A DNA stretch of 33,199 nucleotides. Origin: Spironucleus salmonicida. Its lineage: Eukaryota; Fornicata; Diplomonadida; Hexamitidae. Positions within the stretch are counted from its first letter, which is position 1. The number at the start of each line of letters is the position of its first letter. Below, piece after piece: positions 811 to 26,700 of the stretch. Location of the stretch: the NCBI GenBank assembly GCA_000497125.2, contig AUWU02000010.1, forward strand, positions 1 to 33,199. Direction: 5' to 3'. The notes under the pieces were generated by a model. It ran no database searches. It was not told the DNA's origin and saw nothing but the letters and a program-made list of their open reading frames with translations. The translations under genes and the position numbers were made by a program.

Positions 811-1177
811 GAAGTATGTAGTATTTATAATTTTTTAAAAAGTTAAAAATAAAAATAAAAAATCAGTATTCTTCAGGATAAAATATTGCTAATTTTCATA
901 TAGCTTAATACTATAAATATTATTATTTACTTATATCACTAATGGAATTTAAAATTAAATTAATATTTTCATTCCTAAAATATATTTGAAAAAAAATCAA
1001 CATTTGGCAGATGACTGGTATAGCTGAATTCATACATGGCCAGAACAGGTGCTAAAATTTACCCTAAAATAGGTACGATGGAGCTGTAGTGGTTACCTGC
1101 AAGCATAATTAAAAAAATTAGTGTGCGAAATAATAAAACTAAATGGTAGTATTGACGGTTTTAATCAAAAAGACAAT
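811..1177. other. AT-rich spacer, no gene seen
   Basis: This is low-complexity A+T-rich DNA between the subtelomeric repeats and the 3' flank of the LSU gene, on the telomere side of the rRNA unit. Its composition becomes more mixed from about 1000. A box A-like word (TGGTATAGCTG, 1016-1026) is present, but such words are expected by chance. I see no open reading frame or recognisable RNA. Confidence 0.6.
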
Positions 1178-1204
1178 AGACAGTGAGTTCAATTCCCACT
1201 GTCT
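1178..1204 (+). other. Hairpin with tRNA T-loop-like apex
   Basis: An 8-bp perfect stem, AGACAGTG (1178-1185) with CACTGTCT (1197-1204), encloses AGTTCAATTCC. The apex contains GTTCAATTC (1187-1195), a full match to the Pol III box B / T-loop consensus GWTCRANNC. I cannot fold a complete tRNA around it: no D-arm, anticodon arm or acceptor partner sits at normal spacing. It may be a tRNA relic, a Pol III promoter element or a chance hairpin. Confidence 0.35.
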
Positions 1205-1276
1205 GCAAAATTAATAATCTAAACTATATATTTTGCATAGCTTAACGACTCAATCGAAACTTTATCGTGAACACTA

Positions 1277-1314
1277 GCAAATATTTTCTAGAAAAGATTT
1301 GCTAATTGCAAATC
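1277..1314 (-). terminator. Alternative hairpins just past the LSU 3' end
   Basis: Two hairpins share one arm. One is GATTTGC (1296-1302) with GCAAATC (1308-1314). The other spans 1277-1302, a near-perfect palindrome centred on TTTTCTAGAAAA with GCAAAT and ATTTGC at its ends. Because ATTTGC (1297-1302) is used by both, they are mutually exclusive. In the direction of rRNA transcription, the first hairpin follows the LSU 3' end and precedes a TTTTC run. This suits a termination or 3'-end processing signal, but that function is inferred from position only. Confidence 0.45.
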
Positions 1315-1501
1315 AGCATTCTTGCCTCAATGATCTATTGATCGCGACGCTCTTGTGGGGTAGTTTCACACTTAGATGCAGTCAGCGCTAATCTGTCTTG
1401 GGTGGCTTCGCAGCACTGGTATGTCAACCAACTGCATAAACTAGAGCCAAGTACAAATGGTTCCTCTCGTACTGAAATTGTATGCCACTTAAGTGATAGG
1501 A

Positions 1502-1558
<57 letters not shown>

Positions 1559-1649
1559 CACGGGTGAACAATCCGACACTTTCACAATTATGCTTGTGAA
1601 TGATAGGAAGAGCCGACATCGAAGAATCAAAAAGCCACGTCGCTATGAT

Positions 1650-1693
<44 letters not shown>

Positions 1694-4100
1694 TCACCTT
1701 TATGTTAACAATCTAAACAAGTTAAAGGATCGATAGGCCACGCTTTCACGGTGTATCTCGCCAATGACGAAATAAATCAGGTGAGCTTTTGCCCTTTTAC
1801 TCTACAACAGGTTTCCGTCCTGTTTGAGCTCACTTTAGGACGCCTGCGTTGCTTTTTAGCAGGCGCGCCGCCCCAGCCAAACTCCCCATCAAACGATGTA
1901 TATGAATAACATTAATTACTAAGATAATGGATTTACCATATAAGCGGAACAATGAGAGGTATCAGGGTTTTTCATGGTTGATTACTCTGCCCTGTAGCCT
2001 ACATTACCACCATCGTTCCACAACGTCTAACTAGAGTCAAGCTCAACAGGGTCTTCTTGCCCCGCTGGCCATTACCACTCGCCCGTTCCCGAGTCTGTAG
2101 TTTCGCGAAGATGCATCTAGGGACAGTAAGAACCTCGTTAATCCATTCATGCACGTCCAAAATTACTGGACGAGGCATTTGGCTACCTTAAAAGAGTCAT
2201 AGTTACTCCCGCCGTTTACCAGAGCTTGAATAACTTTCATCATATTGACATGCATAGCACTGGGCAGAAATCACATCGTGTCAAAACAAGTTGAAGCTAT
2301 CACGATGCTATGTTTTAATTAGACAGTCAGGTTCTTCTTGTCCGTTCCAGTTCTGATAGTAAGGAATTATCATCTCTTGAAGAGCAGTTCTATTCAACTA
2401 GACCTGAAAGTAAACCCTCAAGTTTCGTCGGTAGACATAAGCAGGACAAAAGATGATCCTAGATCAGAGCCACCCCTTTTCCCAAAGTTACGGAGCTAAT
2501 TTGCCGACTTCCCTTAGACACGTTATCTTCACACTAGAGGTTGTTAACCTTAGAGACCTGATGCGGTTATGGGTACGCCGTGACATGTTTATTAACTGGT
2601 ATTTTTCATGGGACTTCCCTAATCACGTTATACCGCAAATGCGATATTCTTCCGGTTACAATGCAGCTTCTATGACTAAATCATTCCACTGCGTTGACGC
2701 CGTTAAGAAGAAAAGACTATCCTTCAACGGACTAAAAGAAGTCTGGTACCAGGCAACTAGTCGCCTATAACAAATCACTAACGGGAATATTAACCCGTTT
2801 CCCTTTCGACCAGAGAATGGGACTAGCCACATGCCTTCTATTTTTCAACAGTCGCTTAGGAACGTATCACCCACGAGTCGTATAACGGCGCCGTGGAAGC
2901 CTTCTCTTCTTCAGTCTTCTGGCATACCAGAATAATTGCTACTACTACCTAGATCTGCACTAAAGTAACCTCTATACGACCTCACGATCATACTTCTAAG
3001 GTAACTTCACGACCTCCTACCCATTTTTGTGGTGCAGTATAAATACCAGGTTTAAGCGCGATCCATTTTTCGGACTAGGTAATTCGGCTGGTGGGTTGTT
3101 ACACACTCCTTAGAGAATTCCAACTTCTATGGCCATCTTCCAGCTGTCAATATTACCTAACGCCGTTTAGTCTGATGAACCTGGTTTACGCACTTTAACT
3201 GCACTATCGGAGCAATCCGCCTTGCCAATCCTGCTTACCAAGAGGGGCCCACTAGTTAACACTTGTATTTAAAATTACCCTTCAATTAAGAAAGAATAAC
3301 GCTCTGTATTCGGAGTTTGAGAGTCGGATGAGGACTGATCCCCACTATCTCCAATCATTGTCTCTACTACTAGAAACTACATTGTTAACCGCTATCCTGA
3401 GAGAAATTTCGGAGGTAACCAGCTACTAGATGGTTCGATGAGTCTTTCGCCCCTATACCCAACTCTGACAAGCGATTTGCACGTCAGCAACGTTACGAAC
3501 CTCCATCAGTCTTTCGACTGACTTCATTCTGGTCAGGTATAGATCACTATCTTTCGGGTCTACTTCGGCCGGCTTAGCCTAAAAGAATTATGGCAATTTA
3601 ATTATGACTTTCATTGCGCAGGATAGTTTAACACTATAATACTCGCCGGTCAAAATAAGTCCTAGGTCCGTGTTTCGAGACGGGCGAGAAGCCTGCAAAT
3701 ATTAATTACAGACATCCCCTTTAAGAAAGGGTTTCACGTCCTTTTAAATGACCCTTTAAGAGTCTGCTTTTCACAATTCGCTCACGCTACTCGGTACACT
3801 ATCGGTCTTGGATCGCTATTTAGTCTTAGAAGGATTGTACCTCCTGATTCATACTATACTCTCAAACAGTACTACTTAATCCATCATAAAGTGCAACGTT
3901 CTACAGGGACTTTCACCCTCTTTGGTCAGCCATTCCGGACTGTTACGAACTCTAGCAATATGAAGACAGACAACTCAGACGATTACTGTCAGACATTTCC
4001 CTTTTCGCTCGCCGCTACTAGAGGAATCTCTGTTGATTTCTTTTCCTTGGCTTATTGATATGCTTAAGTTCAGCCAGTAATCCACATTGAACCAGACGAC
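1315..4100 (-). rRNA. Large subunit rRNA (28S-like, reduced)
   Basis: This is the RNA of the large ribosomal subunit, including the peptidyl-transferase centre. Landmarks on the minus strand are CTGAACTTAAGC near the 5' end (4062-4073), GTAGCGGCGAGCGAA (4004-4018), GATGTCGGCTCTTCC of domain V (1606-1620) and the sarcin-ricin loop AGTACGAGAGGAACC (1459-1473). I placed the 5' end by spacing from CTGAACTTAAGC and the 3' end before the 1296-1314 hairpin; both may be off by tens of bases. At about 2.79 kb it is well below the roughly 3.4 kb of yeast, so eukaryotic expansion segments are shortened. It is the last gene of the unit, transcribed towards the telomere. I saw no intron or break. Confidence 0.95.
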
Positions 4101-4281: not shown

Positions 4282-4329
4282 GTAGTAAAGAGCGAACTCC
4301 TACTACCTAAAATTGTGAGATGATAATTT
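4282..4329 (-). other. ITS1 (very short)
   Basis: About 48 nt lie between the SSU 3' end (GGATCATTA) and the inferred 5.8S start. No structure was resolved. A spacer this short is typical of strongly reduced rDNA units. Confidence 0.65.
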
Positions 4330-5822
4330 AATGATCCTGCTGCAGGTTCCCCTACAGCAGCCTTGTTACGACTTCTCCTTCCTCTAGAAGAGCGGGCTCG
4401 CAATTGTTGCTACATAACGATACGAAATGTAGGTCCGAATAACTCACCAGATCTTCCCAATCAGTAGGAGCGACGGGCGGTGTGTACAAGGGGTAGGGAC
4501 GTAATCAGCGTAGATTCATAACCTACACTTACTAGACATTCCTCATTTATGAAGGATAATTTCAACCTTCAAGCCTAACCACGACAAGTTTTAATGAACT
4601 GCCACCATTTTCAGGGAAGCAACACGATGAACCTGCCATTGTAGTACGCGTGCGGCCTAGGGCTTCTAAGGGCATCACAGACCTGTTTTTGCCTCTGCCT
4701 TCCTCTAGTTCATCACTAGCAGTCTCAGATAATTAATCTGATAGAGGTCTCGTTCGTTATCGCAATAAAGCAGACAATTTAAATCACGGACTAAGAACGG
4801 CCATGCACCACCAACAACTTAATCATGAAAGATCACTCATCTGTCAATCCTCAAAGCTTCTGGGCCTAGTAAGATTTGCGTGTTGAGTCAAATTGAGCCG
4901 CAGACTCCACGTCTGGTGGTACCTCTCCGTCAATCCCTTCAAGTTTCAACCTTGCGATCATACTTCCCCCAGAGTCTGAAACCTTACGATTTCTCTTGGC
5001 AAATGAAGTAAAAACCCCATCAGCTAGGCGACATCGTTTAGGGTCAGGAATAAAACGGTTTCTAATCGTCGTCTATCCCCTGACTTTAGTTCTTGATCGT
5101 GATACTTAGACTGCGTTGGGAGCCTCCGCTACCGTTGGTCTTCGATAGATCATCCTATTTCACCTGTCCCTATCGAGTACCCCAAACTACGCCAAATACC
5201 GCATTATAATTTCATACTATAAAAACAGTTAAGTAGTTATAAACACTTAGATTTACTTATAGTGAAAAAGAAAATAAACTACGAACTTTTTAACTGCAGC
5301 AACACAATAGAATACTCTCCGTGTCGGAATTACCGCGGCTGCTGGCACCGAGCTTTCCCACGAATAACCGGTTAGCTTAGATATAACAGGCCCTAGATGG
5401 TGTACAAAAGTACCCTTCATTTCTTGTCACTGCCTCGTAACGAATACATTGGGCAATTTCCGCGCCTGCTGCCTTCCTTAGATGTATGAGCTGTTTCTCA
5501 TGCTCATTCTCCGGAGTCAAACCCTAATTCCCCGTAAGCGTCGAATCCTTGGTAGGCAAATACCCCACCAACGTAAGATGATGCTGCAGTGGCAGATATG
5601 CAAACGTACTTACTATTATCTTTAGTAGAATACTAAACATAGTTCATGTATTACTAACAGATTTTCCGTTACTATCCAACGAAATACATTGCATGTACTA
5701 ACCACTGATAAATGAGCTGTTCGCCGTCTTCGCTCCACAATAATGAATATAACTGTCTACACATAGGCATGCATGGCTTAATCTTTAAGAGAAGTATGCT
5801 ATCCTGGCAGGGTCAACCAGAT
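4330..5822 (-). rRNA. Small subunit rRNA (18S-like, reduced to about 1.49 kb)
   Basis: This is the RNA of the small ribosomal subunit. Minus-strand landmarks are CTGGTTGACCCTGCCAG at the 5' end (5804-5820; most eukaryotes have GAT where this has GAC), GTGCCAGCAGCCGCGG at the 530 loop (plus-strand block 5326-5348), TTGTACACACCGCCCGTCGC (4470-4489) and the terminal helix 45 region (4332-4361) ending in GGATCA. The helix 45 stem is TGCTG/CAGCA instead of the common TTCCG/CGGAA, a compensated change that resembles microsporidian forms. At about 1493 nt it is shorter than the usual 1.8 kb and longer than typical microsporidian SSU (about 1.3 kb). It is the first gene of the unit. Confidence 0.96.
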
Positions 5823-6076
5823 AATAATAATGAAAAAATTTCAAAAGTAAAATTAAGTAGTACCCGAATATTAATAAATATTAATTATATTTTTTAACAT
5901 ATTTTGTTAAATATATCCCGCATTAAAAATGCGATTGAATGATGATTAAAAGGTGATATTAATAGTTAACCCCGCTAATAGGGGTGTTTTGTTGTATTCT
6001 ATAGTTAAAAAGATACTTGTAGTTATAGAATACATTGCATAATGAAGAAATGTGTTGAATAAATATATTTATATGA
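5823..6076 (-). promoter_or_regulatory. rDNA 5' flank with three hairpins (5' ETS/promoter region)
   Basis: This AT-rich stretch immediately upstream of the SSU should hold the Pol I promoter and 5' external spacer. It contains three hairpins: CGCATT/AATGCG (5919-5933, loop AAA), ACCCC/GGGGT (5969-5985) and GTATTCTATA/TATAGAATAC (5994-6033, 10 bp). No promoter consensus can be assigned by eye. The regulatory role is inferred from position. Confidence 0.55.
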
Positions 6077-6534
6077 TTTTAGGTAGGGCGGCATTATTTT
6101 AGGTAAGGGTGGTTTTAGGTAAGGGTGGTTTAAGGAAGGGTGGTTTAAGGAAGGGTGGTTTAAGGGAATGGAGGTATTATTTTAGGTAAGGGTGGTTTTA
6201 GGTAAGGGTGGTTTAAGGAAGGGTGGTTTAAGGGAATGGAGGTATTATTTTAGGTAAGGGTGGTTTTAGGTAAGGGTGGTTTAAGGAAGGGTGGTTTAAG
6301 GGAATGGAGGTATTATTTTAGGTAAGGGTGGTTTTAGGTAAGGGTGGTTTTAAGGAAGGGTGATTTAAGGGAATGGAGGTATTATTTTAGGTAAGGGTGG
6401 TTTTAGGTAAGGGTGGTTTTAAGGAAGGGTGATTTAAGGAAGGGTGATTTAAGGGAATGGAGGTATTATTTTAGGTAAGGGTGGTTTTAGGTAAGGGTGA
6501 TTTAAGGAAGGGTGATTTAAGGGAAGGGTGATTT
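6077..6534. repeat. G-rich higher-order minisatellite upstream of rDNA
   Basis: The array is built from three related words: a = TTTTAGGTAAGGGTGG, b = TTTAAGGAAGGGTGG (or GGGTGA), and c, which starts TTTAAGGGAATGGAGG and ends in TATTA. They repeat as a-a-b-b-c, a-a-b-c, a-a-b-c, a-a-b-c, a-a-b-b-c and a final a-a-b-b lacking c, so the composite unit is about 68-85 bp. The strand that serves as rRNA template is G-rich. It sits where spacer enhancer repeats lie in other rDNA. It opens with one interstitial telomere-like word, TAGGTAGGG (6080-6088). Confidence 0.88.
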
Positions 6535-6650
6535 ATTTTTAAGAGAACAAAAAAATACATAATTGCAACTAAGCACTATTCTACTTCCGTAGTTAAAATT
6601 ACTACAAAATTCTTGATAATACAGTTATTCTAATTCATCATTTTGTTATT

Positions 6651-7075
6651 TGTGACAACAAATTAGACGAATCTAATTATCATGTCAAATCTCAATGTCT
6701 ATTAAAAGCCTTCGCGCATAATCCTGAATGACTATCATTACCCCCTAAGTATGAAGTTTAAAATTTCACCGGTTAAGGTTATCGACCAACTTGCAGGTAT
6801 TTAAGCGATAGCAGCCGCAGAACATATGCAGCTTAAAATAGACATTATGCTCGTTATCCGAAAATAACGAGTTGAGATAATCCAACCTAAAATAAGATCT
6901 AGACATAGGGATAGGTCACAAGAGACAAGCATCATCCGCAGGCCTCTTCCTCACTATCGATAGTAGGTCAGTTTCAAATAACGCTAATCTGATTCAGAAT
7001 GATAGTATTATCAATACAATTGCATAATCTATTTTATTTAGGGGGACGTGTTAATTTTACAATTGGGTCTGTCCC
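6651..7075 (-). ncRNA. Structured element A (paralogue of B), unknown RNA family
   Basis: Helices seen: TGACA/TGTCA (6653-6657 with 6683-6687) enclosing H1 AATTAGA/TCTAATT (6661-6667 with 6672-6678); H2 AATGTCTATT/AATAGACATT (6694-6703 with 6837-6846), enclosing a domain of about 130 nt; H3 CTCGTTAT/ATAACGAG (6850-6857 with 6864-6871); H4 TGATA/TATCA (7000-7013); and a terminal helix GGGAC/GTCCC (7043-7047 with 7071-7075). Single-stranded blocks ATAAGATCT (6892-6900), CATAGGGATAGGTCA (6904-6918) and TCACTATCGATAGTA (6951-6965) are shared with B. Read on the minus strand, H1 ends in a UUCG tetraloop and H3 in a U-G-closed UUCG loop, which favours minus-strand transcription. Ends are approximate. 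I do not recognise the family. Confidence 0.6.
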
Positions 7076-7118
7076 AAAACTTCATAGTAGATCGTAATCT
7101 CCACTATCTACTCACACT

Positions 7119-7516
7119 ATCTGGAAACAACAAACCAGACGAATCTGGTTCAAAGCACTACAAGGGTGAATACCGACACGTAATCTTTTAGCGTGGTCAA
7201 ACCACCGTTACGAAGAGTTCTGTTATGTAGTGCAGATGTCAAATTTTAATGTCTATAAATAGACATTCTTGTTATCCGAAAATAACAAGTTAAATAAATT
7301 AACTTAAGATAAGATCTTGCGATGCATAGGGACAGATCATAAGGAGCATGCATCGCTGCATGCCACATGGTCACTATCGATAATAAGCTTCATTTCAAAT
7401 AGTGCTAGTAGATTGTGTTATCTAAATATAGATAATTTTCTACTATTGGGTTTCTCTCCTAATCAGTAATACCTTTCCTTATTACCGATAGTGGGACCCG
7501 ACCCAATTGGTCCCAC
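7119..7516 (-). ncRNA. Structured element B (paralogue of A), unknown RNA family
   Basis: Helices seen: ATCTG/CAGAT (7119-7123 with 7233-7237); H1 AACCAGA/TCTGGTT (7133-7139 with 7144-7150); a helix absent from A, GCACTACA/TGTAGTGC (7155-7162 with 7226-7233), holding CGTAA/TTACG and GTGGT/ACCAC; H2 AATGTCT/AGACATT (7248-7267); H3 CTTGTTAT/ATAACAAG (7268-7289); GCATGCA/TGCATGC (7346-7363); H4 TTATCTA/TAGATAA (7418-7435); GTAATA/TATTAC (7466-7485); and terminal GTGGGACC/GGTCCCAC (7491-7516). H1 and H3 differ from A by paired compensatory changes while their loops are identical. On the minus strand the loops of H1 and 7346-7363 become UUCG and GCGA. Its edges are inferred from the outermost helices. 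Confidence 0.6.
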
Positions 7517-8005
7517 ATATATATAGTCAATTTCAAGAGGACAGCTTAGATGCCTGGGTATATTAGTTAAACTTCATTTTTTCTTACAATATTTTTTTCT
7601 AAAAATAGATTCATCAATAATATATTATGTATAATATAAAATTTAGTAAAATAAATAATAGTTATTATATATTTATAATTATATTTTTATTTATCTTATA
7701 CTATAAATAGAATAAACATTTAAAATATCATTTATATATAAATATTACTAATATATTATATATTATTGAGTTTTTAGATTAATTTTCAGTTTCTAATATT
7801 TTAAAAATATATATATACTACTATATAATAATGTGTTATTACTATTAATCTTATATTCAATATAATAATATGTTTAATTAATTTTTCACTTTAATAATTT
7901 TAATAATTTATAAATATGTATTTATATATATTATATAACACATATTTTTTAAAATATATAAATTTTACAAATAATTATAAAATTTAATAAAATTTAATAT
8001 CTATG
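7517..8005. other. AT-rich spacer, no gene seen
   Basis: After a short mixed stretch (to about 7565) the DNA is almost pure A+T with many ATATAT runs. No ORF, RNA-like fold or repeat of note was seen. Confidence 0.6.
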
Positions 8006-9565: not shown

Positions 9566-12500
9566 TATAATATTATGTTTTTTCCACTTTATTTTCTATT
9601 CCTTACTTAATATTATATAGTATATAATAACTTTTAGCTTTTGAAAACTACGAAACTATATATCTCCCACTTCTGCTGTTGTATACTTAAATCTTTTTAA
9701 GTATTATAGCCAATATATAGTATAATATAATTGTGTATAGTAGAAGTTTCCTACGTATGGGTAACGGCAATTATAAATTTTTAACGATGCCTCTGGGCTT
9801 AAGTCCAGATAATGGCATAATAGTTTGGCCGAAAGTTGAAATCCCAAAAAAGGTCAATTGTGAGTGGAGGCTCAGTTTCATTTTTAGCAAGACAGAACTG
9901 TCTGTTACAATAAAAATGAAACAATGAAAATTAATTTAACAAAAATAAAATAGAAAACGACCTTTTATCATCAGGTCGGCCAAAACTATTATCGATTAAA
10001 ATTTTTGAGTAGGAATTTTAAAAAAGTGATTTTTCAAACATTCACTAGGCGACTAGCAATTGAGGGTCCTTGTGTTAACACATTTTGGTGGTGCTAGATG
10101 ACTTCTCGGGATGACCTTGTGCGAAACATGATCTAGGTTTGTCAGAGAGATGAGAACCGACATAAATATTATATATTCTATATATCGACAATATATGCAT
10201 AAATTAGTTTTTTCTACGTATACAATTCTGCAAAAACTGAAATGTTGATATTTGTTGAGGTTACTAGTTTTTTAGTTTCTGTATTGTGAAAACAATACAA
10301 AATTTAATATAATATAAAAAATATACAAATATTTTTGTATAATATAAAATTAAGATTTAGATTTATGTATTAGTATTATATATATTACGAATATTAACGT
10401 TTTTCAATTTACTGTATATGTTAGTTTCTGGCAGAGATAGAAAAGGAAAAAATATAGTATATATATAATAGATATATATATTCTATATTGTATTTTAAAA
10501 GTACTTATTTTTCAAACGATTCGTCCAAAAAGGTCAAAAAATCATTATTTTGACACCTGTTGTGGAGTGGTACTTTTTGAAAAAAGGAGTTATGTAATTA
10601 TTATATAGGATTATGTTAAACTTATTTTTTTCAAATTTTCACACACTTTGTTATGGTGTAGTATTATGCAATTTTTCTATTGTTTAAAGTGGTGAAAAAA
10701 ATAATATATATATATTATAGGTATATTTTTTTGGTTTATAATATTGGAAAGATTTGTATTTTATATTAGTTTTGTACATAATTACATCAAAATTATACAT
10801 ACAAAATTACTATAAAATTCAGTTTCTACAGTTTCTATAGATTATTCAATATACAGACATATTATATTTACATATATATTAATAAATGTATTTTAAAGTA
10901 CTCAAATTTATCAAACAAACCCATCAACACTATCACAAAACTCACTATAAAATTTTATTAAAATTTTAAAGCCTATACTTGTATGGTTAAAATAAAACTT
11001 TTGTATTTTAAAAGTATATATATATAATAATATGTTTTAGAGTGGCAATATTTTTAGTATATTCTGGTATATAATATTATGTTTTTTCCACTTTATTTTC
11101 TATTCCTTACTTAATATTATATAGTATATAATAACTTTTAGCTTTTGAAAACTACGAAACTATATATCTCCCACTTCTGCTGTTGTATACTTAAATCTTT
11201 TTAAGTATTATAGCCAATATATAGTATAATATAATTGTGTATAGTAGAAGTTTCCTACGTATGGGTAACGGCAATTATAAATTTTTAACGATGCCTCTGG
11301 GCTTAAGTCCAGATAATGGCATAATAGTTTGGCCGAAAGTTGAAATCCCAAAAAAGGTCAATTGTGAGTGGAGGCTCAGTTTCATTTTTAGCAAGACAGA
11401 ACTGTCTGTTACAATAAAAATGAAACAATGAAAATTAATTTAACAAAAATAAAATAGAAAACGACCTTTTATCATCAGGTCGGCCAAAACTATTATCGAT
11501 TAAAATTTTTGAGTAGGAATTTTAAAAAAGTGATTTTTCAAACATTCACTAGGCGACTAGCAATTGAGGGTCCTTGTGTTAACACATTTTGGTGGTGCTA
11601 GATGACTTCTCGGGATGACCTTGTGCGAAACATGATCTAGGTTTGTCAGAGAGATGAGAACCGACATAAATATTATATATTCTATATATCGACAATATAT
11701 GCATAAATTAGTTTTTTCTACGTATACAATTCTGCAAAAACTGAAATGTTGATATTTGTTGAGGTTACTAGTTTTTTAGTTTCTGTATTGTGAAAACAAT
11801 ACAAAATTTAATATAATATAAAAAATATACAAATATTTTTGTATAATATAAAATTAAGATTTAGATTTATGTATTAGTATTATATATATTACGAATATTA
11901 ACGTTTTTCAATTTACTGTATATGTTAGTTTCTGGCAGAGATAGAAAAGGAAAAAATATAGTATATATATAATAGATATATATATTCTATATTGTATTTT
12001 AAAAGTACTTATTTTTCAAACGATTCGTCCAAAAAGGTCAAAAAATCATTATTTTGACACCTGTTGTGGAGTGGTACTTTTTGAAAAAAGGAGTTATGTA
12101 ATTATTATATAGGATTATGTTAAACTTATTTTTTTCAAATTTTCACACACTTTGTTATGGTGTAGTATTATGCAATTTTTCTATTGTTTAAAGTGGTGAA
12201 AAAAATAATATATATATATTATAGGTATATTTTTTTGGTTTATAATATTGGAAAGATTTGTATTTTATATTAGTTTTGTACATAATTACATCAAAATTAT
12301 ACATACAAAATTACTATAAAATTCAGTTTCTACAGTTTCTATAGATTATTCAATATACAGACATATTATATTTACATATATATTAATAAATGTATTTTAA
12401 AGTACTCAAATTTATCAAACAAACCCATCAACACTATCACAAAACTCACTATAAAATTTTATTAAAATTTTAAAGCCTATACTTGTATGGTTAAAATAAA

Positions 12501-23749: not shown

Positions 23750-26700
23750 AATATGATTATATATGAATAATATAGTGTTTGGTGATGCTAAAAAACTATT
23801 TAGAAATCTACAAAACCGATCTATTTTTAGAATTAACATTTTAGAATAAGTGTATATGATTATATAATAATATGTAGTTTGCCCAGAAAAAACGCTTCAT
23901 TTTTATGATTATAGATAATTTACTATTATAATAGGTTTGGTAACTTCCGGATTTTTAGCCAACTGTAGATGTATAGGTTTTTCCTTTCCTAAACATAACC
24001 TTTTGGTATTTTTTTCTAATAGTGATTCTGCATTGTTATAATATATTATCTGGGCCCAAAAGTGTTACACAAAAAAGTGATTTTTTTAATTTTACTATGA
24101 TAATAGATATATATTGAATAGGTGGTGTTTGTATTATTGAAAAAAAAGTGTGGGTAGGGGTGCGACGATTTTCAAAAAAAGTGAAAAATGGCCTTCCCTT
24201 CCACAGTATATCTATTATATATTAAATAGAAGGATGCATTTGGGTCCAAAAAAGATTTGCCCTTCCAAAAAAAGATTTGAATTTGGCTGTTTAGTATTTG
24301 TGGAAGGGACCCTGTTTTTTTCCTATATAAATATATATATGTTAATATAGAACCCGGGCGGATCGAAAAAAATCTAGGTATTTATACAAACGAGTTATGA
24401 AAAGCGCACTTTCTTGTTTTGACCTTTTTGCAGCCACGATCCATTAATCTTGGGAAAACTTATGGAGTGATATTAATATATATATGTAGATAATTTTTTC
24501 CCCCGAATTCAGATCATTGAAATCAATACAAATTGGTGATCTTAACAAACTTCATTTTTTAACCCATTTTTGCCCAAGCTCGACCCACCTTCAACAGAAA
24601 CCGAAAAAAAAAATTATTGACTTATAAAAGTCATTAAACAATATATATGCAACTTTTTCTACACCAAAAAAAATGCTTGCTAAAATGAAGGCCCAAAAAG
24701 TTATTTTTCAAAACTGCTCATTTTAGCTAAAAGTCACCACAATGATTATAATCACTTAAAACGCGTTTCTACGACCATCTTTATGCCAAAATCGGTCTTT
24801 AGAAGGATTCGATATCTCATGTTAAATACTATGTTTTGAAAATAAATCGATAGCTTATTTTAGAGGGTCAGAGTATAGTCGTCCGTTCCTCGGAATATTC
24901 AATAAACTTTAAGTTTTTTGATTTTCAAAGTTTAGAAAGGGAGAAGTGGACAGTGAATATTATGGGTTGAAAAATGATATATAATTTGCATACTTTTTTT
25001 CAGTCCTTTTTACGAAGTGGAAGACCGACCAGCATAAATCGTTAAATCCACTTTTATCTTGGCTATTTTTATAGTAAAAACTAATTTAAAAGTTTTTCAA
25101 TGTATATATATCTATGACGCATATAACCCTCTTACAAATTTCCTGTAGTATTTTTGAACCTTGAGAAAAAAAAAGCAAAAAGTCAAAATAAGGTTTTTTG
25201 TATACTTTTGTTAATATAAAAGAGATGAAGCGGTGTCATTTTGTGACAACTTTTTCTGGTTAATATAATTGTATTATATATAGATTATTCCACTCCAAAA
25301 GATTTTTAAAGATTGAGCTAAGAACGAACAATTATTTTTTTAACTCACTAATTCTCCCTTTTTTCATTCCTTTTTTTTTTAAAGCAGAGGGAATGGAAAT
25401 TTGTCTTATTATGATAAATAATATAAAAAGATATTAATAATCCCCCGATTTTAGTGTCATATTTTCATAATTTCAAAAATTGATTATTTTGAGAAATTAA
25501 AATTTAATTCTCGCCTCGAAATGACATGAATTTTTAAATTTCACTATGAGACTCTATATTTATTATAGACAATATAATATATTTGTAAATTTAAAAAATT
25601 TACGAATCAAAAAATGAAAGTCAAGACAGTGAAAAAATGAAAAATCCATGTGGTCAAGTTTTGGCATTTGAATATGATTTGTAAATTTCACACGTTTTTT
25701 TGGTACAATTGTGGTAGGCATAGCGAAAGCGATACCTTCTAGAGCCTCTAGCGTATTCGGTCCTGGGTTCAAACCTCGCCAAAAAAATCAAAAAGATAGT
25801 GCTTTTGGATATGGATTTCGGCCACTTTGGCCAAAATTCAAAATTTGAAGTCGAATTTTGGACCAAATTTTGGCTAGTTAGTAGATTTTGCGAATTTTTG
25901 GAGAAAGTCTGGAGCTACACGTCTTTCGATATTTTTCATGATAAATGACGTTTTCACCCACTAGACTGTGGAAAGAAGCCAAAATAATCTCTGAATTAGG
26001 AGTGGAAAACGAGTGAAAACCAGAGGTGGAATGGAAAAAGTGCAAATTTCTTCGTTTTGGATAAAAATTAAAGATGGTATGTTGCTACTAATTTTCAAAA
26101 TTTGGGAGACAGACTCATGACCCATTTTTGGATTTTGCTCCATTTTTCTCCATTTTTAGAGCGGAAAGTTTATATATATATATAATAATTGATTTGATAA
26201 ACTTTTCTTACCTATTTTTCCAAAAATTGGAGTGGTGATTTTTAGTTAAGCCATAGGTCACTGGCAAAATCTGAAATTTTGTGAAAACATCAAATTTGGA
26301 AGGGAAAACGTCATATACTACTATTTATAGGCTAAATAGTTGTATGGTGAGATACACAAATGGAAAGAAATGAATATTCGAAATACATTATTTAAATCAT
26401 ATTATTTTTTCTACGATTTTTCTTCAAAATAAGTTAATATAATAGGAATATATTAATCTTTTTTTTTAATTTGTCCGGCTTTTTTTTAATACTTGTAAAT
26501 ATATATATAATAATGTTATTATTGTTATTCACGACACTATTTTGTCGAAAATTGGTTCTTCAAAATGCTAAAACTTACGAGCAGCTATATTACGGATATA
26601 TATTAACATTATTTTTTAAATGTACTCAATTTTTATTCTATTTTTAGTATTTTATGAATATATATTGAATATAATTCTGTTACAATTCCTTTTCATTATT

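Follow-up and report, generated by a model that had tools for sequence, protein, structure and literature searches.

The 5' external transcribed spacer (ETS) of rRNA genes is generally helix-rich, its sequence diverging while its structure is kept, and the U3 snoRNA is tied to pre-rRNA processing. RNase P and RNase MRP RNAs are paralogues, each with a long P1 as its closing helix. In mammals, pRNA is described as a sense transcript of the rDNA spacer that is recognised through a stem-loop (PMC3961174), and the human pRNA gene is reported to contain (CCCT)n repeats (PMC12570693). For diplomonads, the titles and opening lines of abstracts in the open-licence literature yielded no description of a 5' ETS or of a structured rDNA-spacer RNA, and the 2014 genome paper, in its available excerpts, mentions an rRNA contig but not spacer elements (PMC3916229).

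Spironucleus salmonicida is described as having nine chromosomes and (TAGG)n telomeres. Its 18S, 5.8S and 28S genes are reported on one small contig and nowhere else, the extra contigs of the assembly measure at most 36 kb, and the coverage of the rRNA contig, 15 times the average, indicates that several copies have probably been collapsed (PMC9509377). The stretch analysed here, called the window below, corresponds to contig C10 in its entirety (33,199 bases), and the genome searched is an assembly of 14.47 Mb in 37 contigs. By its telomere repeat and its rRNA genes, the window is very probably the rRNA contig described for S. salmonicida.

Two tandem elements in the rDNA spacer

Read from its first base, the window contains the telomeric (TAGG)n repeat, read as (ACCT)n (2-493), the LSU rRNA gene (1169-4100, minus strand; Rfam RF02543, 2122.8 bits), the SSU rRNA gene (4329-5823, minus strand; Rfam RF01960, 1172.8 bits), a G-rich 16/68-bp tandem array (6097-6535) and then two elements, A and B. 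By position alone, the 5.8S region probably lies between the LSU and SSU genes, and an SSU search of the whole assembly found one copy. Both elements are multi-helix units of 430-470 nt, given here on the minus strand with their 5' leader hairpins: A covers 6613-7078 (closing stem 6613-6652 with 6975-7014) and B covers 7091-7516 (closing stem 7102-7126 with 7393-7417). With a GC content of 35-37%, they stand out from the sequence immediately upstream (7517-8005, 11%) and from 5824-6096 and 6536-6612 (23-25%). An earlier note on this DNA had described two diverged tandem elements with covarying helices, and this is borne out, as the stems and loops it quoted occur where it had placed them. Both elements are present, but they extend, through their closing stems, beyond the limits it had drawn.

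Sequence comparison supports the view that A and B are paralogous, diverged tandem copies with a common multi-helix fold. When A was used as a query against the assembly (486 bases, E up to 10), B was matched at 7257-7407 (75% identity, E 2.6e-17), and no third copy was detected in these 14.5 Mb besides A itself and B. As B was retrieved at 75% identity, the search was able to see relatives that distant. A further copy is also unsupported by the 16-mer of helix H3, which is found genome-wide with at most two mismatches at 16 places (the two exact ones being A and B), fewer than the 21 of the reversed control. A blastn search of the phages collection returned a single 33-base piece (E 0.3), and one exact pattern retrieved no relative of A or B from the viral_contigs and genome_contigs collections. 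The "unrecognised structured RNA family" of the earlier note therefore stands as regards structure and the lack of an Rfam match, but the family amounts to two paralogues at one locus, three collections having been scanned without relatives.

The AT-rich stretch at 5890-6049, just upstream of the SSU gene, folds well too (z -3.9 on the minus strand), and it contains an inverted repeat (5993-6010/6017-6034).

A common fold and its probable strand

On the minus strand, along which B precedes A, the core reads 5' to 3' as the leader hairpin (GGGAC type), P1, P2 (enclosing P3 and P4), P8 (enclosing P5 and P6), P7 and the return of P1. P4, P5, P6 and P7 are the helices H4, H3, H2 and H1 of the earlier note, from which the long closing helix P1 was absent, as were P2 and P3. 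The GGGAC/GTCCC hairpin has 5 bp around a long loop in A and 8 bp in B. The P1 core pairs 6644-6652 with 6975-6983 in A and 7115-7123 with 7396-7404 in B, spanning 340 and 290 nt, respectively; the copies differ there by two compensatory changes and a one-sided one, and the outermost pair is open in A on the minus strand. P2 (6964-6969 with 6884-6889 in A, 7384-7389 with 7301-7306 in B) shows one compensatory and two one-sided changes (G.U). P3, located around P4 (6954-6958 with 6910-6914 in A, 7374-7378 with 7331-7335 in B), shows a one-sided change giving U.G in B. P4 itself (6920-6948 in A, 7341-7368 in B) is modelled with 12 pairs, two positions being unpaired in A and two in B; it displays three one-sided G.U changes between copies, and its GCGA loop in B makes it GNRA-capped on the minus strand. 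P8 is weak, with three pairs in A (6874-6876 with 6691-6693) and two in B (7292-7293 with 7246-7247), one of its pairs being compensatory.

The sequences previously quoted for H1 and H3 are confirmed. H1 (P7) is AATTAGA/TCTAATT in A (6661-6678) and AACCAGA/TCTGGTT in B (7133-7150), that is, two double changes around an identical CGAA loop, while H3 (P5; 6850-6871 in A, 7268-7289 in B) exhibits one double change around an identical CCGAAA loop. On the minus strand, both helices are UUCG-capped in both copies. H2 (P6) pairs 6694-6701 with 6839-6846 in A and occupies 7248-7267 in B; its eight pairs are the same in the two copies and thus uninformative for covariation. The H2 loop measures 137 nt in A (6702-6838) versus 4 nt in B, and B carries a domain of its own between H2 and H1 (7152-7233, 82 nt, closed by 7226-7233 with 7155-7162), which folds. 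Insertions at differing sites, with the core preserved, are usual in structured RNAs.

Built from two sequences of one locus in a hand-edited alignment, the model comprises 59 pairs, of which 39 are unchanged, seven compensatory, seven changed on one side yet still paired, and six imperfect (four in P4, unpaired in one or other copy, one in P1, and one gapped pair of the three in P8). P1 (nine pairs), H1 (seven), H2 (eight) and H3 (eight) account for 32 pairs, with five compensatory changes, one one-sided change that keeps the pair and one pair broken on the plus strand. We shuffled the substitutions among aligned columns having the same base in A, in 200,000 runs. At least five compensatory changes in these 32 pairs arose in 237 runs (208 columns) or 9 runs (112 core columns), at least three with at most one broken pair in 12 runs (208 columns) or 1 run (112 core columns), and at least three with none broken, for H1-H3 alone, in 11 runs, but these figures are not clean p-values, as the helices were picked for pairing in both copies and the test is flattered accordingly. 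When the 3' partners were slid by one to three columns, 33-42% of cells paired, compared with 95.7% in register, and the seven double changes dropped to 0-2. The comparison, of two sequences only, supports compensatory change in the common A/B fold in excess of chance.

The earlier note had drawn the helices on the plus strand. We consider the minus strand, which is that of the rRNA genes, more likely to be the RNA strand, as the UUCG caps, the consensus fold and the flanking stem of A all favour it. In this orientation, H1 reads AGA-UUCG-UCU and H3 UAUU-UUCG-GAUA. UUCG hairpins with at least seven uninterrupted stem pairs (G.U allowed) occur four times on the two strands of the 33-kb window, each time on the minus strand: they are H1 and H3 of the two elements. 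Under the same stem criterion, there are four GNRA hairpins on the minus strand (one in H4 of B and three inside rRNA genes) and 11 on the plus strand (nine times one hairpin of a 1.5-kb repeat, and two in a 5.2-kb repeat). The consensus fold reaches -47.7 kcal/mol on the minus strand versus -31.4 on the plus strand (z -7.4 and -5.8, respectively, neither being equalled in 200 column shuffles), and the unguided minus-strand fold recovers P1, P2, P3, part of P4, P5, P6 and P7, but not P8. H1 has equal computed energy on both strands and H3 is more stable on the minus strand, as are the H4 pieces (-9.8 versus -4.6 kcal/mol in A, -6.8 versus -5.7 in B). The 59-pair model includes nine G.U cells on the minus strand versus one C/A cell, a count that favours this strand partly by construction, P2, P3, P4 and P8 having been taken from minus-strand folds; the strand-blind helices (P1, H1-H3) provide one cell for each strand.

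Single-sequence z-scores against dinucleotide shuffles do not discriminate strand. For A, we obtained -3.5 on the plus and -4.6 on the minus strand (6600-7090), or -2.9 and -2.2 with narrower ends (6640-7090). For B, the corresponding values are -6.1 and -4.7 (7091-7516), or -6.0 and -5.3 (7091-7530). When 40 windows of 160 bases were folded from 5830 onwards, four of the five within 7150-7549 had z-scores of -2.8 or lower on at least one strand, and A was scarcely distinct (best z only -2.7).

Stems also occur outside the cores. Pairing just outside the P1 core of A amounts to -18.8 kcal/mol on the plus strand, and on neither strand did any of 1000 shuffles do as well. Outside that of B, 22-nt arms give -11.2 on the plus strand (8 of 1000 shuffles as good; 13 of 1000 on the minus strand), and 34-nt arms a less clear -11.6 (44 of 1000; 23 of 1000 on the minus strand). 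Further out, B is flanked on the minus strand by a 16-bp stem (7492-7509 with 7060-7076; -27.6 kcal/mol, not equalled in 2000 shuffles, and just as good on the plus strand). This stem results in part from the recurrence of the CAATTGGGTC motif, and the leader hairpins compete with it. A is flanked by a stem (7076-7089 with 6600-6613) of 14 bp (-12.0) on the minus strand versus 4 bp (-4.1) on the plus strand, and 1 and 3 of 2000 shuffles were as good on the minus strand. The two flanking stems meet at base 7076. As for background, none of 123 spaced 19-mer pairs reaches -12, and the only one of 123 25-mer pairs to reach -27 is, by position, the B stem itself.

Such inverted repeats might act as DNA rather than RNA, as an imperfect spacer duplication (an origin, a replication-fork barrier or a promoter element) whose symmetry would be maintained by cruciform formation or paired binding sites. 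rDNA spacers can hold duplicated control elements, the rDNA origin of Tetrahymena being duplicated, hairpins are present on both strands here, and ACTATC/GATAGT occurs eight times in 6731-7492, out of 29 occurrences across the window. However, RNA fits better with long-range nested helices showing compensatory change and with invariant UUCG loops, and the changes are G.U-tolerant on one strand, the flanking stem of A being full-length on the minus strand only. We thus regard a role as DNA as quite improbable.

Known families, coding potential and other repeats

At the gathering score, a scan of the whole window with 4227 Rfam families detected the LSU and SSU rRNAs only, and cmscan of 5830-7620 at E up to 10 gave four hits (E 0.23 to 4.6), all under the family cut-off. 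None of the known RNAs against which the earlier note had set its claim (RNase P/MRP RNA, SRP RNA and group I introns) matches A or B in Rfam, and neither do group II introns or other Rfam families, at the gathering score in the window or at E up to 10 in 5830-7620. Nuclear RNase P RNA (RF00009) is not among the four hits; the genome has its own elsewhere (45.6 bits), above cut-off at C6:1002776-1002979 and C28:2151-2354, with strings GGGAAGGUCUGAG and AACCCAAUUCAGACUAC. Similarly, U3 (RF00012) has no match in 5830-7620, and two copies are found above cut-off on another contig (C5:432457-432629 and C5:452798-452970, 49 bits). RNase MRP RNA (RF00030) matches neither element and has no hit above cut-off genome-wide (Rfam, best E 7.8), and the model may miss this lineage. 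MRP RNA is thus excluded for A and B only by the absent model match and the absent CR-I/CR-V-type strings: those present in RNase P RNA of this genome were sought, along with some variants, and matched neither strand of 6600-7520.

This lack of an MRP RNA above cut-off leaves room for A and B to be relics, whether of a known kind of RNA gene (RNase MRP RNA, for instance) that was duplicated and then decayed or diverged past recognition, or as functionless spacer debris. Such an origin is very unlikely, as RNase P RNA and U3 score above cut-off elsewhere in this genome, the CR-I/CR-V strings are unmatched in the elements, and the presence of compensatory changes around unchanged loops points to constraint since the duplication.

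Other candidates were considered. Four 6-nt rotations of a telomerase template were sought on the two strands of 6600-7520. The single match, ACCTAC on the minus strand of A (6963-6968), lies inside P2, is missing from B and is about the chance expectation. Protein coding (table 6, TAR = Gln) was rejected, as the core indels of 1, 4, 1, 1, 1 and 3 nt misfit a common frame; Pfam returned no match for four table-6 frames at E up to 0.1. Table 11 frames of at least 80 aa number four in the window, three in the telomere repeat and one antisense to the LSU gene. Between U3 and the minus strand of 5824-7600, no Watson-Crick run exceeds those of shuffles, and the longest run with G.U (16 pairs in A, the shuffled 95% point being 14) has no counterpart at that position in B. 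Complementarity to rRNA of at least 10 nt occurs once in the SSU and three times in the LSU for B and not at all for A, which by a rough estimate is near chance. In the Spironucleus species concerned, the 3' motif for ncRNA processing known from Giardia is described as not conserved (PMC6679479).

The rest of the window is repetitive. Tandem units of 1504 bp, nine copies of which matched in the window, reach about 22,990, and each carries an island (9743-10168, plus strand) with a GC content of 35% versus about 20% around it. From its sequence, this island looks like a second structured RNA, on the plus strand. Its consensus fold with a copy on the chromosome-size contig C4 (C4:931337-932272) amounts to -94.0 on the plus versus -74.1 on the minus strand; in a comparison with 13 differences in 426 columns, all four changed pairs of the plus fold still pair (two of them via a double change), and the minus fold has one changed pair. 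With E values up to 2 allowed, Rfam returned no match for the island. Contig C4 also carries, at 928000-936000, repeats known from the spacer of the rDNA contig, namely one 1.5-kb unit and what by eye is the beginning of a 5.2-kb unit. They adjoin a GC-rich stretch that by eye resembles a cysteine-rich protein gene, and an SSU search found no rRNA gene on that contig. Finally, a unit of ~5.2 kb is repeated almost twice from about 23,700 to the contig end (33,199). Near 25,770, a string resembles a tRNA T-arm by eye, and ARAGORN reports no tRNA.

Proposed transcription and possible nature of the elements

Our proposed reading, to which we give a probability of about one half, is that the two elements are paralogous RNA domains of a transcribed spacer and are transcribed together with the pre-rRNA or just ahead of it. 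The sequence supports their paralogy, their covarying fold and flanking stems, the probable strand, and the orientation and position given above; transcription, a common transcript with the rRNA, assignment to the 5' ETS, processing and function are inferred. Under this proposal, A and B would lie head to tail on the minus strand, upstream of and co-oriented with SSU-LSU at a telomere-linked rDNA end, and one transcript carrying both would run into the pre-rRNA or lie just ahead of it (as a long 5' ETS or a spacer transcript). The two domains would fold as protein-binding scaffolds, and each unit would be removed or released via cleavage in the stems that flank it. Co-transcription and cleavage in these stems are suggested by the position of the elements upstream of the SSU gene, their direction (the SSU gene is on the minus strand, as A and B probably are), the meeting of their flanking stems, the scant room for a promoter between the two elements, and a GC content well above that of the AT-rich spacer. 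About 25 nt separate the closing stem of B from the leader hairpin of A, which leaves little room for a second promoter.

Alternatively, A and B may be stable stand-alone ncRNAs (a pair of RNP RNAs, or pRNA-like spacer-promoter RNAs) that are expressed from a separate promoter within the non-transcribed spacer and act either in trans or on the chromatin of the rDNA. Four-T runs, of which the minus strand has five in A and one in B, argue against transcription by Pol III, however, as does the little promoter room before A against independent expression, and a further copy was not found in the assembly. Conversely, A and B are each equipped with a leader hairpin, a closing helix and a flanking stem, and they differ in their extra domains. 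The best argument for an upstream spacer RNA is the G-rich array separating A from the SSU gene, which looks more like upstream spacer than ETS and suggests that the pre-rRNA starts nearer to the SSU gene. Mammalian pRNA, a sense RNA described as originating upstream of the rRNA promoter, provides a precedent (PMC3961174). We regard stand-alone RNAs as somewhat unlikely.

Co-transcribed RNA domains might also represent a new diplomonad class of rDNA-encoded RNP RNA, excised at the flanking stems and stable, each copy being specialised by its own extra domain, perhaps for ribosome assembly or rDNA end maintenance; we offer this as a doubtful extension of the proposal. Lying upstream of the SSU gene, a constrained pair of domains would either define the diplomonad 5' ETS or reveal an rDNA-linked RNA without known relative. 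Both outcomes would be testable in strain ATCC 50377, which is described as axenically culturable (PMC9509377).

Among known systems, U3 snoRNA differs in location, the genome's U3 lying on contig C5 and not at A/B. A paralogous pair with a long P1 is reminiscent of RNase P and RNase MRP RNAs, although this is an analogy: A and B have neither an Rfam match nor a CR-I/CR-V-type string. The likeness to pRNA is one of position, and not of compared sequence or fold, as NoRC-bound pRNA measures 150-200 nt and contains promoter sequence, whereas A and B are multi-helix units more than twice as long, located further upstream. Finally, A and B differ from a 5' ETS in being a tandem paralogous pair, set off from the SSU gene by the G-rich array and with no supported U3 pairing site, but they resemble one in that they are helix-rich, have diverged in sequence with their structure kept, and lie upstream of, and co-oriented with, the SSU gene.
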